Made by a program: the position numbers and the translations under genes | NCBI RefSeq assembly: GCF_001278705.1 | Contig: NZ_CP012600.1 | Location: 3,163,917-3,227,916 of the forward strand | Reading direction: 5' to 3' | Source of the DNA: Bacillus gobiensis | Lineage (GTDB): Bacteria > Bacillota > Bacilli > Bacillales > Bacillaceae | DNA length: 64,000 nucleotides | The notes under the pieces: model-generated | What the model was told of the DNA's origin: nothing | Databases searched by the model: none | What the model saw: only the letters and a program-made list of their open reading frames with translations | Shown: positions 20,152-29,325 of the stretch, piece by piece | How positions within the stretch are numbered: the stretch's first letter is position 1 | Layout: each line of letters opens with the position of its first letter

Positions 20152-20270
20152 TTCGATATCAGACACCTCCCTATTTCTATAAAGCGAAAATATATTTTTC
20201 TATAGTTTGATTTTACAAAAGAGGCGGACAATATCTCAAGATTCCGAAAATACAAAAATTCTGATAATTT

Positions 20271-20299
20271 TTGTGGGTCTCACACAAACTTTTTTGTGT
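20271..20299. promoter_or_regulatory. Candidate activator site upstream of putB
   Basis: Three alternating half-sites, TTGTG (20271-20275), ACACAA (20282-20287) and TTGTGT (20294-20299), form overlapping inverted repeats about 120-150 bp before putB, a plausible position for the PutR activator. Confidence 0.4.
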
Positions 20300-20485
20300 T
20301 GCGTCAGATAATCTGTCGTGGTGTTTTCTTTCCACTAAAAAAGGGGATATATTATTATGCCGAAAAAAATACTCATCAATTATCTCTATACTTCCTCAAT
20401 AATTAAGGAATCATAGTAGTCAATTGTGAGTATGCAAAATTATGTTATATTTTGTGCCATAATCTAGTTATCTTTAACTTCTGCT

Positions 20486-21412
20486 TCAACAATCAGCTGC
20501 ACAACGAAACCCCATATGCCCAGTAGAGCTGTCTGGGGTGTTAGAGGTTCTAGCAGCGACACGATATCGATTGCAATAGGAATCGTGACAAAGATACGAG
20601 CCGCCTCGAATGACTTTCATTTCTTCCTGCCCAAAAGGTTGAAATTTTGAGCGGAAATTATCCGTGCACCATTCCCACACATTTCCCGAAAGATTATAAA
20701 GGCCATATCCATTTGGAGGAAACGATTTAGCTGGAGCCGTTCCTGCGAAACCATCATCTTTTGTATTGATATTTGGAAACTCACCCTGCCAAATATTACA
20801 GTAATGTTCTCCGTTTGGCTGTAATTCATCTCCCCATGGATATTTTTTTTGAACCAATCCCCCGCGAGCTGCATATTCCCATTCGGCTTCGGTAGGAAGG
20901 CGTTTTCCTGCCCACGCACAATAAGCAGCTGTATCGTTCCAAGAAACATGGACTACCGGATGATCCATTCGATCATGAATGCTGGAATCTTCCCCTTCTG
21001 GATGTTTCCAGCATGCCCCATCAATCTTTAACCACCAAGGGGTCTGACTCACCCGATCTGCACGTTGAGCAGCCTCATTAGAAACAAATTGATAGAAGAC
21101 GAAAGACCATCCATACCTTTCTGCATCAGTTACATATCCCGTACTGTTAATAAATTCCTGGAAATTTCCATTAGTTACAGTGCAAACATCTATATAAAAC
21201 GATTCGACTTCTACACTTCGAACAGGACCTTCTCCATCTAGTGGAAAACCTTCTTTATCGTTTGTTCCCATTAAAAAATCGCCGCCTTGAATCAGCACCA
21301 TTTCTTCTTTATTAACATTATCATTCCCGTCTGAATCTTGTATGAAGTCTGATTTATGCTTTATTTCACCTCTAGTAATCACGCAGCATGACGGTAATTT
21401 ATCACTCTTCAT
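20486..21412 (-). CDS. Formylglycine-generating enzyme (sulfatase-maturating, SUMF1/FGE type)
   Basis: A 308-residue protein of the FGE-sulfatase family that oxidises the active-site Cys of sulfatases to formylglycine using O2 and copper. MVLIQGGDFLMG opens the domain, and AGKRLPTEAEWEYAARGG, GNVWEWC and MGFRC are family signatures. RGGSYLCHDSYCNRYR carries both copper-binding cysteines (Cys275, Cys280) in the spacing of authentic FGEs, unlike the ergothioneine or kinase-linked relatives. There is no signal peptide, so it acts in the cytosol. It is divergent from a PTS transporter and sulfatase pair, its evident client. A good AAGGAG precedes the ATG. Confidence 0.93.
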   Translation of the reverse strand: MKSDKLPSCCVITRGEIKHKSDFIQDSDGNDNVNKEEMVLIQGGDFLMGTNDKEGFPLDGEGPVRSVEVESFYIDVCTVTNGNFQEFINSTGYVTDAERYGWSFVFYQFVSNEAAQRADRVSQTPWWLKIDGACWKHPEGEDSSIHDRMDHPVVHVSWNDTAAYCAWAGKRLPTEAEWEYAARGGLVQKKYPWGDELQPNGEHYCNIWQGEFPNINTKDDGFAGTAPAKSFPPNGYGLYNLSGNVWEWCTDNFRSKFQPFGQEEMKVIRGGSYLCHDSYCNRYRVAARTSNTPDSSTGHMGFRCAADC

Positions 21413-21514
21413 TTTTATTGCTCCTTCTCATTTTTTCTAAAAAATATAGTCATTTTTATTACATTTACTTGGAGAGTACTTTTTCAGACATTGGTAGATT
21501 GCTGAAAATCCCAC

Positions 21515-21543
21515 TTGACTGATAGGAATAATCAACTTATGAT
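21515..21543 (+). promoter_or_regulatory. Sigma-A promoter of the PTS-sulfatase operon
   Basis: TTGACT (21515-21520), a 17-bp spacer and TATGAT (21538-21543) give a near-consensus vegetative promoter about 50 bp before the EIICB start. Confidence 0.7.
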
Positions 21544-21567
21544 CTTTATCATACAAATCTTTTGTAT
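21539..21567. promoter_or_regulatory. Candidate repressor operator downstream of the -10 box
   Basis: Two adjacent inverted repeats, ATGAT-N4-ATCAT (21539-21552) and ATACAAA-N3-TTTGTAT (21551-21567), cover the -10 box and the expected transcription start, the usual place for a sugar-responsive repressor. No regulator gene is adjacent. Confidence 0.45.
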
Positions 21568-21595
21568 AAATTTAAAGCTGAGGAGCCATTATTTT

Positions 21596-23149
21596 ATGAA
21601 AATCTATTTTTCTTTTAATTTTGTCCAGCGAATCGGTAAGGCTATGATGACTGTAGTTTTAATCCTTCCGTTAGTCTCAATACTAATGGGCATTGGCGGT
21701 ATTCTTATTAATCCTAATATTCAGCAGATCTTTCCGTTTTTGTCTTCGAAAGGATTCCAAGCCGCTGGATTACTTTTACAAAGCTCTGGCCAGGCCGTCT
21801 TCGCAAACCTTTCTGTCCTTTTTGCTGTGGCAATTGCTGCAAGCTGGACAAATAAGGCGATGGCCGGATTATCAGCACTTATTTCATTTTTCATTATGCA
21901 TACGGTTATTAGCACGCTTCTTAAAATTAATGAACTGCAAGTATCTGAAAAGATGATTGGAACGGAATTAGGGATACAAACCCTCCAATTAGGCGTTTTC
22001 GGCGGAATTTTCATCGGCTTTTTAACTGCCTATCTCTATAATAAATTCCACAAAATTGAGCTTCCTGAAGCCATTTCTCTTTTTGGCGGAGAAAGATTTG
22101 TTCCTATCATCTCATCATTTGGAGCAATTATTTCTGCTGTTATTTTTTATTTCATATGGCCCTCCGTTCAACAAGCAATTGGATTGATGGGAGGATTTGT
22201 AGCTAATCATACGAATCCTTTCACAGTAGGTTTATACGGGGGAAGCGTAAAGCTGCTCATTCCCTTTGGGTTGCATCACATTTATAATGCTCCTCTTCTT
22301 TTTACTGATATCGGCGGAGTCTATCAAACAGCAGATGGGGCTAAAATTGCCGGGGACCAAAACATCTATATTGCACAAGTGATGGATGCCTTAAGAAATC
22401 CATCGGTCCCCATTACCGGCGGAGCCTACATTGGAGGAAAGTTTATCCCGGTTATGTTCGGCCTTCCCGGTGCAGCCCTAGCTATGTATCATTGTGCGAA
22501 AAACGACAAAAAGAAAAAGACAAAAGCTTTACTTATAGCAGCAACCATTCCTGTATTTTTAACTGGCATTACTGAACCACTAGAGTATACATTCCTCTTC
22601 GTGGCGCCTTTCTTGTATGTTGTTTATGCGATCTTAACCGGAACCGCATTCGCTTTAGCTAATGCCCTGGATATTCACGCAGGATATGCCGGCGGCTCCG
22701 GATTTATTGATTTTATCTTGTTTAATGCACTGCCTAACCTTAATCACAATTGGGTTACGATTCTAATTCTAGGAGTCATCTACTTTTTCATTTTCTATTT
22801 TGTGTTTAGATTTTTGATTCGAACATTCGATTATAAAACTCCCGGACGGGAACCAGATGTAGAAGAAACTCGCCTTTATACCAAAAAGGATCTAGAAACG
22901 AAAAAAAGTAAAAAGACGGCGGATCAAGCAATCGAAGTGTTGGCGGCACTTGGCGGCAAAGAGAATATCAGTAACTTGGATGCTTGTATTACTCGATTAA
23001 GGGTAGGTGTGAAAGACGTAAACAAAGTTGACGATTCACGCCTAAAAGAACTTGGAGCAGCTGGTGTTTTGAAAATAAACGATGGAGTACAAGCGGTTTT
23101 TGGCGCTAAAGCATCGACTTTAAAGTCTCAGATAGATGAAATCATGTAA
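21596..23149 (+). CDS. PTS EIIC-EIIB transporter, glucose/N-acetylglucosamine family
   Basis: A 517-residue fusion of a membrane EIIC domain (about 1-400, some ten helices; GLHHIYNAP and [11 protein letters not shown] near the substrate site) and an EIIB domain whose phospho-acceptor Cys464 lies in [11 protein letters not shown]. No EIIA is attached, so phosphate probably comes from a shared EIIA such as the glucose enzyme. The frame opens earlier (21515), but ATG 21596 has GAGGAG ten bases upstream and begins where the family does. Together with the downstream sulfatase it suggests uptake and phosphorylation of a sulfated hexose or amino sugar. Confidence 0.92.
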
Positions 23150-23176
23150 GGAATAAGAAAGGGAGGATGATGAAGA

Positions 23177-24505
23177 ATGTCTCAACCAAATATTATTGTA
23201 ATGATTTCTCATGATACAGGTAGATATCTGGGCTGTTATGGCCATCATGTACAAACACCCCATATTGATAGATTGGCTTTTAAAGGAATAAGGTTCGAGC
23301 AGTATTTTTGTCCCGCTCCTCAGTGCAGTCCCAGCAGAGGCAGTATCTTAACCGGACGGTATCCCCACAACAATGGTTTAATAGGCTTGGCTCATTTAGG
23401 GTTTCATATTAACGGAGAAATTACAACTATCCCGAAAGAATTCCAAAAAGCAGGATATGAAACATCTTTGATCGGCTTAAGTCATGAAACGATCGGAGAA
23501 TCTGCACCTATCGAAGAAAGGGTGTTCAGCTCCACTTACAAGCTTGGATACGATCGTTTCATTGAAGTGGAAGGGGATAGAGCTCCCAAAGTTGCTGATC
23601 AGGCGATTGATTTTTTACAAGAAAAATCAGCTGATTCCAACCAGCCTTTCTATTTAAATATAGGATTTTTTGAAACTCACCGAGAATTTGATGAATATGA
23701 GCCTTATGCTGATAAAACAACAGAAGTCAGCGTTTTGCCGTACCTTCCTGATACTCCAAATACCCGTAAGGATCTTTCACAAATGAATGGATCCGTCAAA
23801 GTATTGGACAAGGCGATCGGACGTATCCTCCATACGTTGAACGAAACAGGCCTGCAAGATAACACTATTGTAGTTTATACGACAGATCACGGCATTGCTT
23901 TTCCACGAGCAAAAGGAACATTTAAAGAAGCAGGATTGGAAACGGCTCTCATTATCTATCATCCTGAATACATCCAAGAAGGGAAAACGAACTCTGATCT
24001 TCTGTGTAATATCGATTTAATGCCGACCATTTTGGAACTTGCCGGAATCGCGATCCCTGAAGACTTGGACGGTAAAAGCTTTGCCAAAGTCTTTAGTGAA
24101 GACGATGCAAAGATTCGTGACGAGTTTTTCTGTGAACTAACGTGGCATGATCGCTATCATCCTATGAGGGGTATTCGAACCGATCGGTACAAATACGTAA
24201 AAAATTTCGAGAACGGGCCGAAAATTTATATGCCGCTGGATGCCCATAAAAGCTTATCCGGTCAAGAAGTCCGTGAAGAATATTATGTTCCTAATGAACT
24301 TGAAGAACTGTACGATCTAGAGCAGGATCCGTTAGAACAATCAAATCTTATTGCCGATGAAAAATATAAAGAAATTGCAATAGAGCTGCGCCAAAAGGTT
24401 CAAAGATGGATGGAAGAGACGAATGATCCGCTTTTGAACGGGCCTGTCCCGGGTACCGGCTCTAAAAGATGGGAGGAAGAAATAAAAGCGGGAAGAGCTC
24501 ATTAA
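23177..24505 (+). CDS. Cytosolic type I sulfatase resembling heparan N-sulfatase (sulfamidase)
   Basis: A 442-residue alkaline-phosphatase-superfamily sulfatase. The motif CSPSRGSILTGR (50-61) carries Cys50, to be converted to formylglycine. N-terminal Asp and His residues and YTTDHG (about 233-238) supply calcium ligands. CSPSRGS, HNNGLIGL and LPYLPDTPNTRKDL resemble human sulfamidase (SGSH), which cleaves N-sulfate from glucosamine. No signal peptide is present, unusual for sulfatases, so the substrate must be imported, presumably by the EIICB encoded 27 bp upstream. Ribosome site GGGAGG precedes ATG. N- versus O-sulfate specificity is inference. Confidence 0.9.
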   Translation: MSQPNIIVMISHDTGRYLGCYGHHVQTPHIDRLAFKGIRFEQYFCPAPQCSPSRGSILTGRYPHNNGLIGLAHLGFHINGEITTIPKEFQKAGYETSLIGLSHETIGESAPIEERVFSSTYKLGYDRFIEVEGDRAPKVADQAIDFLQEKSADSNQPFYLNIGFFETHREFDEYEPYADKTTEVSVLPYLPDTPNTRKDLSQMNGSVKVLDKAIGRILHTLNETGLQDNTIVVYTTDHGIAFPRAKGTFKEAGLETALIIYHPEYIQEGKTNSDLLCNIDLMPTILELAGIAIPEDLDGKSFAKVFSEDDAKIRDEFFCELTWHDRYHPMRGIRTDRYKYVKNFENGPKIYMPLDAHKSLSGQEVREEYYVPNELEELYDLEQDPLEQSNLIADEKYKEIAIELRQKVQRWMEETNDPLLNGPVPGTGSKRWEEEIKAGRAH

Positions 24506-24518
24506 AATATTATCTTTA

Positions 24519-24545
24519 AAAAACCGCCATATAGCGGTTTTTTAA
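24519..24545. terminator. Bidirectional terminator between sulfatase and DUF6884 genes
   Basis: AAACCGC (24521-24527) pairs with GCGGTTT (24534-24540), with A-run before and T-run after, serving both convergent genes. Confidence 0.85.
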
Positions 24546-25000
24546 TTATTTATTTCTTCTTCCCTCTCCACCGCTTCATTCAACGCCTTTAGCATATAGC
24601 CAATCCCTTTATATTTCGATAATGGATAACGAACCTTATGCGGCTCTTGAAAGACTTCATCGATAATCGGGCGAAACTTTCTGCCTCCCAAGACAACAAT
24701 CTCATCAAATTGATCCAGATGCTTTGTTTCATACTGCTGTTTAAGGTCGCCCATTCGAATGATTTCCGGTTGGTTTGTCCCAAACGTCACGTCGTAATTT
24801 TCGGGAACGCAGTCATCCGGTTTTAAGAAGCCATGTTTTCCGGAAAGGATAACCCAGTCGTGAAAAAATGTTTTGGCATATCTTTGACAGGCACGATGGA
24901 ACGGACTTAAATACGCATGTTCAGCTTGAATGCTGCCAGTATCGGGCTCCACGTCCCATATCTTCTTCGCTCCGCACGGTAGCACACATAATCGCTTCAA
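24542..25000 (-). CDS. DUF6884-type protein
   Basis: A 152-residue cytosolic protein. LCVLPCGAKKIW at the N-terminus, AHRACQRYAK-like helix, ILSGKHGFLKPDD (about 50-62) and EIVVLGGRKF (about 100-109) match the DUF6884 pattern of small nucleotide-binding-like proteins, often near phage or repair genes. Start is TTG with GGAGGAG upstream. Function is not known. I am moderately sure of the family. Confidence 0.6.
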   Translation of the reverse strand: MKRLCVLPCGAKKIWDVEPDTGSIQAEHAYLSPFHRACQRYAKTFFHDWVILSGKHGFLKPDDCVPENYDVTFGTNQPEIIRMGDLKQQYETKHLDQFDEIVVLGGRKFRPIIDEVFQEPHKVRYPLSKYKGIGYMLKALNEAVEREEEINN

Positions 25001-25020
25001 TTTATCTCCTCCAGTACTGC

Positions 25021-25287
25021 TACTTATTCACCGATTTTCTAAGTTATATTCTAATTGTAATAGGAGTTGTTTCTATCTGTACATTCTATCTATCAATAGA
25101 CTTATTTGCAGAGGTCGATTACGAGATATATGATTTAGAACACATTAATAAGGGATTATTTGGATTATTTCCTTTATAATAAACTTACGACATGTGATGC
25201 ATTTCATTTGCTAGGTTAATAAAGCATCAGAATGAAGTCGTAAATTTCCATCCGGCATTCGAAAACAATGAAAGGAGAAACTTAAAA
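25021..25287. other. Intergenic stretch with a nested hairpin before the first DUF805 gene
   Basis: TTACGAC (25185-25191) pairs with GTCGTAA (25237-25243), and inside it GATGC (25196-25200) pairs with GCATC (25224-25228). The left half (25040-25180) reads on the plus strand as a hydrophobic, then acidic protein end (LSYILIVIGVVSICTFYLS) with no credible start, probably a gene remnant. Confidence 0.5.
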
Positions 25288-25683
25288 ATGCAATGGTATG
25301 TAGGAGTGATAAAAAATTATGCGAATTTCAAAGGAAGAGCAAGACGTAAAGAATACTGGTTGTTTGCCCTCTTTAACTTCTTAATCATCGCTGCAATTCT
25401 TATTACATTCTCATCATTTTTAAATATAACATTATTTTATGTAGGATTAGTTTTAATTGTAAGCTATTATTTATTTACTGTGATACCAACTCTAGCTGTT
25501 ACAGCACGCAGATTACACGATATAGGAATAAGCGGATGGCTGCAATTAATCTTAATCGTCCCTTATATTGGAGGACTTGTCATAACTGTGTTAGCATGTT
25601 TCGATAGCCAAAAAGGCGACAATACATATGGATCAAATCCTAAACTTGAACAACCACTGACAAGTGATTCTGTAAACCTCTGA
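25288..25683 (+). CDS. DUF805 membrane protein (copy 1)
   Basis: A 131-residue inner-membrane protein of the DUF805 family. It starts MQWYVGVIKNYANFKGRARRKEYW, the conserved family N-terminus, then has three hydrophobic helices (about 26-48, 51-70, 87-110) with TARRLHDIGISGW between the second and third. The C-terminus is polar. GAAAGGAGAAAC precedes the ATG. A close paralogue lies at 28930-29325, flanking the repeat protein. Function of the family is unknown. Confidence 0.9.
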   Translation: MQWYVGVIKNYANFKGRARRKEYWLFALFNFLIIAAILITFSSFLNITLFYVGLVLIVSYYLFTVIPTLAVTARRLHDIGISGWLQLILIVPYIGGLVITVLACFDSQKGDNTYGSNPKLEQPLTSDSVNL

Positions 25684-27181: not shown

Positions 27182-28588
27182 ATGTCCAATGGATGTAACC
27201 AAAATCCAATCGGTGATTGTTCGGAGGCGGAAGGTTTGAATACAACCGCCAACGGAACAGCTTCTCATGCTGAAGGATATCAAACGACCGCAAATGGGGA
27301 GGCTTCCCATACTGAAGGAAACACAACTACTGCAGGGGGGAGTGCTTCCCACACAGAAGGTTATCTTACCCAATCGACAGCGGCAGCTGACACCGCACAT
27401 GCAGAGGGTACCTCTACCACAGCTAGTGGAGTCGCTTCCCACGCAGAAGGATATCTCACAACCGCCAGCGGACTCACCTCTCATGCCCAAGGGGGAGGGA
27501 CTCTAGCTGGAGGATCATACTCTCATGCGGAAGGAAGAGACACACAAGCCACTGGAGATGTTTCTCATGCCGAGGGGTTTATGACGATAGCAAGTGGAAC
27601 TGTCTCTCATGCCGAAGGCGCCTTTACAGATGCCAGTGGAAGCGTTGGTTCACATGCAGAAGGCGTTGATACAACTTCGAGTGCATTTGCTTCTCATGCA
27701 GAAGGATTAAGCACAACCGCTAGTGGGAACGCTTCCCATGCAGAAGGGGAGGGTTCAACTGCCAGCGGGTCGCGTTCCCACGCGGAAGGGCACAGCACAA
27801 CCGCTAGTGGAGAAGCCTCCCATGCGGAAGGAAACGGTACGATTGCAGATGGAAACTTTGCTCATACAGAAGGACTTAACACAACAGCTAACGGTTTTGA
27901 TGGGGTTCATGTGATGGGCCAAGGTGGAGGTCCAGATCCTATGAATCCTGATGATTTGGATTTTTCCTGGTATCTCGTTAACGGTGCACTTGGCGGGGTT
28001 GTTGCCAAAATTTTAAATGATGGTTCTGCTTGTTTTGAAGGTGATGTATCTGCAAATATTGTGGCTCCAGTGGCCTGTGACTTTGCTGAAATGTTTGAAT
28101 CATCAAATGGCCAATTGATTGGAGTTGGTTACTTTGTTGCATTTGACGGGGAAACAGAGAAAATCCGAAAAGCTAACTCCAGGGATGACTATATAGTGGG
28201 CATAACCAGTTCTAATCCTGCTGTCTTGGCAGATATTCAAGATCCTGAATGCAGTAAATATATGCTTGATAAATGGAACAGGCCAATTTACGAAGAAGTC
28301 ATCATTCCTCCTGAAAAAGATAATAAGGGAAACATTTTACGGGAAGAACGTAAAATTAATAGAAAAAAAATAAATCCAAACTGGTCGAAAAATTGCAGTT
28401 CACGTCTCGATAAGCAGGAATGGATGGCTGTTGGTCTTGTTGGAAAGCTACTGGTTCGGGATGACGGTACTTGTCAACCAGGTAGTTATTGCAAACCGAA
28501 TGATGAGGGAATAGCGACGAAAGCCAGGAAAGGGTATCGTGTAATGAAACGTACAGGTTCTAATCAAATATTGGTATTGGTTAAATAG
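27182..28588 (+). CDS. HAEG-repeat (YadA-head-like) surface protein with C-terminal autoproteolytic peptidase G2 domain
   Basis: A 468-residue protein. Residues about 14-238 are some 16 tandem repeats of 14 residues, consensus SHAEGxxTTASGxA, like the left-handed parallel beta-roll head of trimeric adhesins and phage tail fibres. Residues about 255-468 resemble the intramolecular-chaperone autocleavage domain (peptidase G2) of phage appendages, with CDFAEMFES and WMAVGLVGKLLVRDDG as family-like stretches. The domain would trimerise the fibre and then cut itself off. No signal peptide or anchor is visible, and no other phage gene is nearby, so export and host role are unclear. Several Cys lie near the N-terminus and in the tail. 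Confidence 0.82.
   Translation: MSNGCNQNPIGDCSEAEGLNTTANGTASHAEGYQTTANGEASHTEGNTTTAGGSASHTEGYLTQSTAAADTAHAEGTSTTASGVASHAEGYLTTASGLTSHAQGGGTLAGGSYSHAEGRDTQATGDVSHAEGFMTIASGTVSHAEGAFTDASGSVGSHAEGVDTTSSAFASHAEGLSTTASGNASHAEGEGSTASGSRSHAEGHSTTASGEASHAEGNGTIADGNFAHTEGLNTTANGFDGVHVMGQGGGPDPMNPDDLDFSWYLVNGALGGVVAKILNDGSACFEGDVSANIVAPVACDFAEMFESSNGQLIGVGYFVAFDGETEKIRKANSRDDYIVGITSSNPAVLADIQDPECSKYMLDKWNRPIYEEVIIPPEKDNKGNILREERKINRKKINPNWSKNCSSRLDKQEWMAVGLVGKLLVRDDGTCQPGSYCKPNDEGIATKARKGYRVMKRTGSNQILVLVK
27230..27900 (+). repeat. 42-bp coding tandem repeats of the HAEG protein
   Basis: About 16 imperfect 42-bp units, each coding 14 residues around TCTCATGCAGAAGG (SHAEG) and ACAACCGC(T)AGTGG (TTASG). 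Two units are extended (near 27360-27400 and 27630-27660). The units are diverged, pointing to selection on protein structure and not recent expansion. Confidence 0.9.
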
Positions 28589-28929: not shown

Positions 28930-29325
28930 ATGGAATGGTATTCAAAAGTGTTAAAGAATTACGCAAATTTCTATGGAAGAGCAAGACGTAAGGAATTATG
29001 GATTTATAATCTATTTAATGCCATAATATTCATAGTGCTTTTTATTTTACAAGCATTAATAACTAATCCGGCAGTAGCCATAATTATAGGTCTTTTAACA
29101 GGAATCTATGCTTTAGGCGTTCTGGTACCAAGTTTAGCTGTTACAGCACGTAGATTGCATGATATTGGAATGAGTGGATGGCTGCTGTTAATCTACCTTG
29201 TTCCTTTTCTCGGTGGTCTTGCCATATTTGTATTGGCTTGTTTAGATAGCCAAGCAGGCGATAATGAGCATGGACCAAATCCTAAATATGGAGACTCCTC
29301 TAAAAGTGATACTGTAAGCATCTGA
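28930..29325 (+). CDS. DUF805 membrane protein (copy 2)
   Basis: A 131-residue paralogue of the protein at 25288, sharing the N-terminus (KNYANF.GRARRKE), the TARRLHDIG.SGW motif and the DSQ.GDN..GPNPK tail. Three membrane helices are predicted. The two copies bracket the HAEG-repeat gene, which suggests an old duplication or a functional link. AAAGGGG precedes the ATG and a TATAAT-like box lies at about 28820. Confidence 0.9.
   Translation: MEWYSKVLKNYANFYGRARRKELWIYNLFNAIIFIVLFILQALITNPAVAIIIGLLTGIYALGVLVPSLAVTARRLHDIGMSGWLLLIYLVPFLGGLAIFVLACLDSQAGDNEHGPNPKYGDSSKSDTVSI

Follow-up and report, generated by a model that had tools for sequence, protein, structure and literature searches.

What substrate is handled by a sulfatase that stays in the cytosol, is encoded beside a sugar transporter of the phosphotransferase system (PTS), and has a maturation enzyme of its own? 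Such a set of genes is found in Bacillus gobiensis, in a stretch of 64,000 nt (contig NZ_CP012600.1, positions 3,163,917 to 3,227,916) which we will call the window. A gene for a formylglycine-generating enzyme (FGE; 20486..21412, minus strand, 308 aa) is divergent from two genes on the plus strand. The first codes for a PTS EIICB of the glucose/N-acetylglucosamine (GlcNAc)/maltose family (21596..23149, 517 aa from its ATG) and the second, 27 nt further on, for a cytosolic S1_8-like sulfatase (23177..24505, 442 aa). An earlier note on this DNA had described an FGE, an EIICB of the glucose/GlcNAc family and a CSPSR sulfatase without a signal peptide in this arrangement, which domain searches confirm, and had proposed N-sulfoglucosamine (GlcNS) as the substrate. 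We suggest a different answer: a sulfur-scavenging operon for a C2-sulfated glucosyl sugar, most likely trehalose-2-sulfate (2-sulfotrehalose), a proposal which we consider to have an even chance of being correct.

In the scheme we infer, with its substrate, its phosphorylation of C6 before desulfation, its sulfur control and its regulator, the EIICB would bring in the sugar with phosphorylation at C6. In the cytosol, the C2 sulfate would be removed by the S1_8-like sulfatase, once the dedicated FGE has matured it, and the sulfate released would enter assimilation (Sat, CysJI). If the substrate is sulfotrehalose, trehalose-6-phosphate would be left over for cleavage by TreA, whose gene lies at another place in the genome; in general, the sugar phosphate would go to TreA or to glycolysis. 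Under sulfur limitation, transcription would rise from a type of promoter also found before ssu, metY and cysJI genes, and CymR may mediate this. The genome contains the other enzymes named in this scheme. TreA is found with 878.6 bits (cut-off 799), and its gene adjoins a treP-like EIIBC gene and a GntR-type gene which we read by eye as treR. CysJ and CysI are present and Sat is over its cut-off, so the released sulfate could be assimilated.

The sulfatase contains PF00884 and PF16347 (SGSH_C), both over cut-off. The latter, a broad and unspecific domain, gives 88.4 bits against a cut-off of 29.3. The CSPSR motif is found at residues 50–54, with the active-site cysteine at C50, and no signal peptide is seen by eye. 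In searches of PDB, the best solved relative is S1_8A from Pseudoalteromonas, whether the search starts from the single sequence (E 2.3e-44) or from a profile of 21 sequences (E 1.1e-59). Residue H168 is aligned to the His of the ETHR segment of S1_8A, its catalytic acid, by hand count the H202 of its published description (PMC12549532). S1_8A is described there as a galactose-2-sulfate 2-O-sulfatase, specific for the monosaccharide, and the S1_8 enzymes described act at C2, GlcNS included (PMC12549532). The S1_8 subfamily contains both O- and N-sulfatases, and human SGSH is one of its members; kinship at this level therefore predicts a C2 sulfate, either O- or N-linked. The kinship to heparan N-sulfatase proposed earlier is thus reasonable at the level of the subfamily, SGSH being an S1_8 enzyme and SGSH_C being over cut-off. 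SGSH is not the closest characterised enzyme: S1_8A and some C6 sulfatases score higher (SGSH 4mhx, profile E 2.6e-50). The window enzyme has the Cys-type active site and the ETHR segment in common with S1_8A. It differs from the S1_8 sulfatases (S1_8A, S1_8B and S1_8C of Pseudoalteromonas, human SGSH, Nsulf of Pedobacter) in that it has no signal peptide and lies beside a PTS gene, not in a polysaccharide locus.

The FGE has a PF03781 domain (E 6.7e-86) and no signal peptide by eye, and its best solved match is the FGE 6s07 (E 9.2e-111). Alignment to 6s07 places both active-site cysteines, C275 and C280, in a SYLCHDSYC segment, so that it is a true FGE, as had been claimed. A PF03781 search of the whole 4.6-Mb genome gives this single gene. 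The EIICB has PTS_EIIC and PTS_EIIB domains, with the DAC motif of EIIB and a GITEP motif; no EIIA domain was found in it. Its best NCBIfam model is GlcB (TIGR02002), with 518.3 bits. This is below the equivalog cut-off of 591.8, and we have withheld the label "glucose-specific" for this reason. The GlcNAc model gives 403.3 bits (cut-off 553.2).

The link to trehalose comes from the relatives of the sulfatase. We have used the best 80 of 393 confirmed stretches from a scan of bacterial and archaeal genomes (loci are designated by L and a number). Of these 80 loci, 48 are at least 50% identical, and 47 of them were mapped by clustering the open reading frames (ORFs) within 7 kb, L019 being left out; annotation covered cluster representatives and selected neighbours. 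A trehalose-type EIIBC is found in eight of the mapped loci (L016, L017, L018, L020, L025, L029, L030 and L031). It lies directly beside the sulfatase in six of them, with a phosphotrehalase between the two genes in L016 and L018. All but L018 were scanned: the trehalose model TIGR01992 is the best model for the seven EIIBCs, over cut-off in two, and another trehalose model, NF008236, is over cut-off in six. In L016, from Clostridioides, the phosphotrehalase abuts the sulfatase (847.6 bits, cut-off 799) and TreR is nearby (281.9 bits, cut-off 212). TreR is also found in L030 (242.8 bits, over cut-off) and in L031 (195.2 bits, under cut-off). Sulfatase relatives are thus found within or adjoining genes like those of the trehalose PTS operon treP-treA-treR. 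The window operon differs from such an operon by its GlcB-like EIICB and by the absence of a TreA and a TreR of its own.

Other mapped loci have different neighbours. A glucose-type EIICB adjoins the sulfatase in six (L010–L015). A GH65-cluster gene is found within 7 kb in 17 loci, mostly from halophilic or alkaliphilic Bacilli (three representatives were scanned, from L029, L036 and L049), and eight loci have a beta-phosphoglucomutase-cluster gene, one of which was scanned. L029 carries both a trehalose PTS and a GH65-cluster gene. FGE-cluster genes are present in 23 loci and anSME-cluster genes in six; the anSME of L020, the one scanned, is over cut-off. We should also note that L020, L031 and L040 have FGE-cluster and anSME-cluster genes near the same sulfatase, a pairing consistent with formylglycine maturation with and without oxygen, where anSME would be an apparent oxygen-independent backup. 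L020 has a SulP permease as well.

The sulfatase tree has 31 rows, picked from the 61 of an earlier quick tree: every PTS-linked row apart from L091, which is identical to L015, with a further 12 or 13. All 17 PTS-linked rows, L054 apart, fall into a single clade (100/100). The window and Niallia sulfatases group with six trehalose-PTS rows (97/91), the exact pairing of the two being weak (80/28), and the remaining two trehalose-PTS rows group with seven glucose-PTS rows (95/91). In approximately unbiased (AU) tests, a single clade is rejected both for the eight trehalose-PTS rows (p 0.005) and for the nine glucose-PTS rows (p 0.015); these groups were set by gene context, and the interleaving was already visible in the quick tree before the tests. 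The type of transporter has thus changed from locus to locus while the sulfatase was kept, and the simplest account of this is that the sulfated cargo, or the sulfated part of it, remained constant.

Residue 250 of the sulfatase is Lys in 17 of 17 PTS-linked rows, among which L007 is identical to L014 and L015 to L091, and in two of 28 ABC-linked rows (L040 and L046); L006 is not included in these counts. Four residues before it, K246 is invariant. L054, whose EIIBC lies two genes away and has sucrose as its best model, has Met at this position. Our guess is that K250 contacts the phosphate of a phosphorylated substrate. Its value as a PTS marker is weakened by the Lys of L040 and L046, by the identical rows and by the common ancestry of the PTS clade.

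Distant relatives, with 40–49% identity in the loci kept, are common among haloarchaea. According to two sources, 2-sulfotrehalose is a major osmolyte of haloalkaliphilic archaea. In several species of Natronococcus and Natronobacterium it is the main solute, and it was also detected in Natrialba magadii (PMC1224877, PMC3403918); the first of them also gives sulfotrehalose as a component of mycobacterial sulfatides (PMC1224877). Natrialba magadii carries a relative of the sulfatase, and no gene for TreT (trehalose synthase) was found in its 7-kb flanks. One neighbour in Natronosalvus and one in Halopiger carry the annotation glycosyltransferase; Pfam identifies both as TreT, and for the Natronosalvus protein the best solved match agrees. 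With tblastn, TreT is found within 10 kb of the sulfatase in four of 34 distant loci (L065, L070, L108 and L109), all of them haloarchaeal. Among the open-access papers listed that name sulfotrehalose or trehalose-2-sulfate, none mentions breakdown in its title or abstract opening, which is not proof of absence in print, and the phrases "trehalose sulfatase" and "sulfotrehalose degradation" do not occur in the open-access texts searched.

The control region suggests that sulfur is what the operon is after. A divergent regulatory region of 183 bp (21413..21595) separates the FGE and EIICB genes. It contains a promoter on the plus strand (21514..21543), which consists of a conserved element, CTTGACTGATAGGAATAAT, and a −10 box, TATGAT. 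The EIICB ORF as listed begins with a TTG at 21515, inside this promoter; the ATG at 21596, with GAGGAG upstream, is the likely start. Directly 3' of the −10 box lies a palindrome, ATACAAA-TCT-TTTGTAT (21551..21567), a candidate operator. No regulatory RNA of Rfam reaches its gathering score in positions 20170–25400. The CTTGACTGATAGGAATAAT promoter stretch is largely kept in Niallia, where the operon adjoins SsuA-, SsuC- and SsuD-like genes (the SsuA family is over cut-off, the SsuC and SsuD models are under theirs). In Niallia the palindrome of the window was not seen, and a different one, perfect over 16 bp (ATTAATTG/CAATTAAT; L010, 8030–8045), occupies a comparable position past the −10 box.

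A search of the window genome for CTTGANTNATAGGAATNAT with up to two mismatches gives 12 places, the operon's own site included, and the reversed pattern used as a control gives three. Four of the 11 other matches directly precede sulfur operons: an ssu-like operon (SsuA over cut-off), metY (839.6 bits, cut-off 726), the pair cysJ-cysI (each over cut-off), and ssuD, also over cut-off, which by eye is joined by a sugar-type ABC transporter. With a matrix made from the window, Niallia and amidohydrolase sites, these sulfur promoters score 31.6, 25.3, 18.4 and 17.5, and an aminotransferase promoter scores 23.0. With a matrix made from the four sulfur sites, the window site scores 33.6, a value which is not independent since the training sites were reached via that same site; the next best score in the window is 16.4 and ten random controls give at most 19.3. 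Rrf2-family genes are present in the genome. CymR, described as the cysteine repressor of Bacillus (PMC3828012), is a natural candidate and is possibly the regulator of the operon. In its promoter element, and in the ssu-like neighbours of the Niallia operon, the system resembles the scavenging of sulfonates by ssu genes or by SsuD with a sugar-type ABC transporter. The chemistry is different: hydrolysis of an ester by a formylglycine sulfatase in the window, oxidative cleavage of a C–S bond in the ssu systems.

Two loci of this genome that carry the element are of further interest. In one (L145, contig positions ~3097400–3101500), it precedes a gene for a monooxygenase of the SsuD type, over cut-off, and by eye a sugar-type ABC transporter comes next; this looks like a sulfoquinovose-type monooxygenase operon. 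In the other (L120, ~4030275), a match without mismatches precedes an amidohydrolase-like gene and a sugar-type ABC transporter, a candidate for a further sulfo-sugar operon.

Several results weigh against a sulfotrehalose operon under sulfur control. The transporter of the window is of the glucose type and there is no trehalose gene in the operon; glucose-type relatives could import glucose-2-sulfate or GlcNS instead. The search for the promoter element started from the window's own site. Another four of the 11 stand before genes that are unrelated to sulfur or of unclear function: an SDR gene, the aminotransferase gene, an opp-like ABC operon, and the amidohydrolase-like gene with its sugar-type ABC transporter (all but the aminotransferase by eye). 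The remaining three are unlike promoters, without a plausible gene start close by, and one of them lies inside an ORF of the opposite strand. The element is missing from the sat locus and from three further SsuA loci (matrix scores of at most 7.9). Among 119 loci, a stricter form of it is found outside the window genome in Niallia alone, and the relatives with TreR would be regulated by sugar, not by sulfur. For 30 of the 34 distant loci, a set which includes non-haloarchaeal and short loci, the tblastn scan gave no TreT nearby, and its query was the Natronosalvus TreT from L109, itself one of the four positives. The closest solved matches of the GH65 proteins are kojibiose and maltose phosphorylases, so the substrate there may be an alpha-glucoside other than trehalose. 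Ten loci from Paenibacillaceae (L021–L024, L026–L028 and L032–L034) have LacI- and ABC-cluster genes without a GH65-cluster gene. Finally, the S1_8 placement of the sulfatase is not clean. The C6 sulfatases 7lha (exo-L-galactose-6-sulfatase) and 7p24 (mucin-desulfating) outrank SGSH in both the single-sequence and the profile searches, the GlcNAc-6-sulfatase 5g2v does so in the single-sequence search, and all three rank above S1_8B and S1_8C.

Three other explanations have been considered. According to the first, glucose-2-sulfate or a close 2-sulfohexose would enter through the glucose-type EIICB and give glucose-6-phosphate and sulfate, and the trehalose-linked relatives would be a disaccharide version of the same system. 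The type of the transporter and the two separate parts of the tree in which sulfatases linked to glucose-type EIICBs are found speak for this explanation, as does the description of S1_8A, the nearest solved relative, as specific for a monosaccharide (PMC12549532). On the other hand, the window and Niallia sulfatases fall among those linked to a trehalose PTS. Nor are we aware of any clear source of free glucose-2-sulfate in nature, and we consider this explanation unlikely.

A second one, which we find quite improbable, is that the substrate is some other sulfated sugar, such as a 6-sulfated GlcNAc, or an aryl or alkyl sulfate, in which case the trehalose link of the relatives could not be transferred to the window. 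The C6 enzymes 5g2v, 7lha and 7p24, which come directly after S1_8A or above SGSH, would fit. Nevertheless, a sulfate at C6 would block the site of PTS phosphorylation, and S1_8A comes first, aligned in one stretch over nearly the whole length, while the C6 sulfatases align in two or three stretches.

The least probable is the route of the earlier note, import of GlcNS by the EIICB as its 6-phosphate and conversion by a cytosolic sulfamidase to glucosamine-6-phosphate: it keeps a small chance because the sulfate of GlcNS is also on C2, and it agrees with SGSH_C being over cut-off, with SGSH (S1_8) being among the better solved matches and with the score of the EIICB on the GlcNAc model, under cut-off, but the 2-O-sulfatase S1_8A outscores SGSH, the relatives are tied to trehalose-type, GH65 or TreT genes, the sulfatase clade mixes trehalose-type and glucose-type transporters, the promoter suggests a role in sulfur supply, and no heparinase II/III gene (PF07940) was found in the window genome.

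If the sulfotrehalose operon is placed beside its relatives, a wider proposal may be made, which taken as a whole we hold tentatively, as somewhat more doubtful than an even bet: a dedicated pathway for scavenging sulfotrehalose, spread by gene transfer among Bacilli, Clostridia, an Enterobacter and an actinobacterium. The 2-sulfated sugar would enter in phosphorylated form via a trehalose- or glucose-type PTS, or, in halophiles, via an ABC transporter with a GH65 phosphorylase. Inside the cell, its sulfate would be taken off by an S1_8-like enzyme that has its own FGE or anSME. K250 would mark the recognition of a phosphorylated substrate, and the Bacillus of the window would run the pathway within its response to sulfur starvation. 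If right, the sulfotrehalose reading would provide a candidate for the missing enzyme of sulfotrehalose breakdown, with a clear gene signature. It would account for the place beside trehalose genes of sulfatases that stay in the cytosol and have an FGE or anSME to themselves, and sulfated sugars would join the list of sulfur sources that Bacillus can use. It would also call for caution over the label "N-sulfoglucosamine sulfohydrolase", which several relatives carry in one source. A known parallel is the PTS-coupled import of unsaturated glycosaminoglycan disaccharides in streptococci, where a polar sugar is processed inside the cell, as proposed here. That route differs in that it uses another PTS family, depends on lyases and on a glucuronyl hydrolase, and has no link to trehalose.

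The sulfatase is rare among related genomes. It was not found in 43 other genomes of the genus searched at E 1e-20. Among 80 genomes of the family, relatives with 65% identity are found in two besides the window's, and there are two weak matches (30–31%); at the level of the order, eight of 397 genomes, the window genome counted, have a match at 1e-80. The operon is thus patchily spread and was probably acquired. A separate case is L030 (8379–12108) of Enterobacter sp. kpr-6, in which a trehalose-type EIIBC, the sulfatase and TreR adjoin copA; the cassette appears to have reached a gammaproteobacterium by transfer, and megablast gives no match for it in the E. coli genome collection. The window genome itself has four PF00884 matches, and the other three lie in frames of 648–680 aa, which we take to be of the LtaS type. 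Two other identities of the sulfatase were tried and rejected, those of a choline sulfatase (128.2 bits, cut-off 433.45) and of the PRK13759 arylsulfatase (163.4 bits, cut-off 481).

Downstream of the sulfatase gene, a hairpin on the plus strand (24516..24545) resembles an intrinsic terminator. Further on in the window, an ORF of 468 aa (27182–28588) with many SHAEG-type repeats resembles, by eye, the head of a trimeric adhesin or a tail-fibre-like protein. Near each other, at 25288–25683 and 28930–29325, lie the genes for a pair of similar membrane proteins of 131 aa, DUF805-like by eye.

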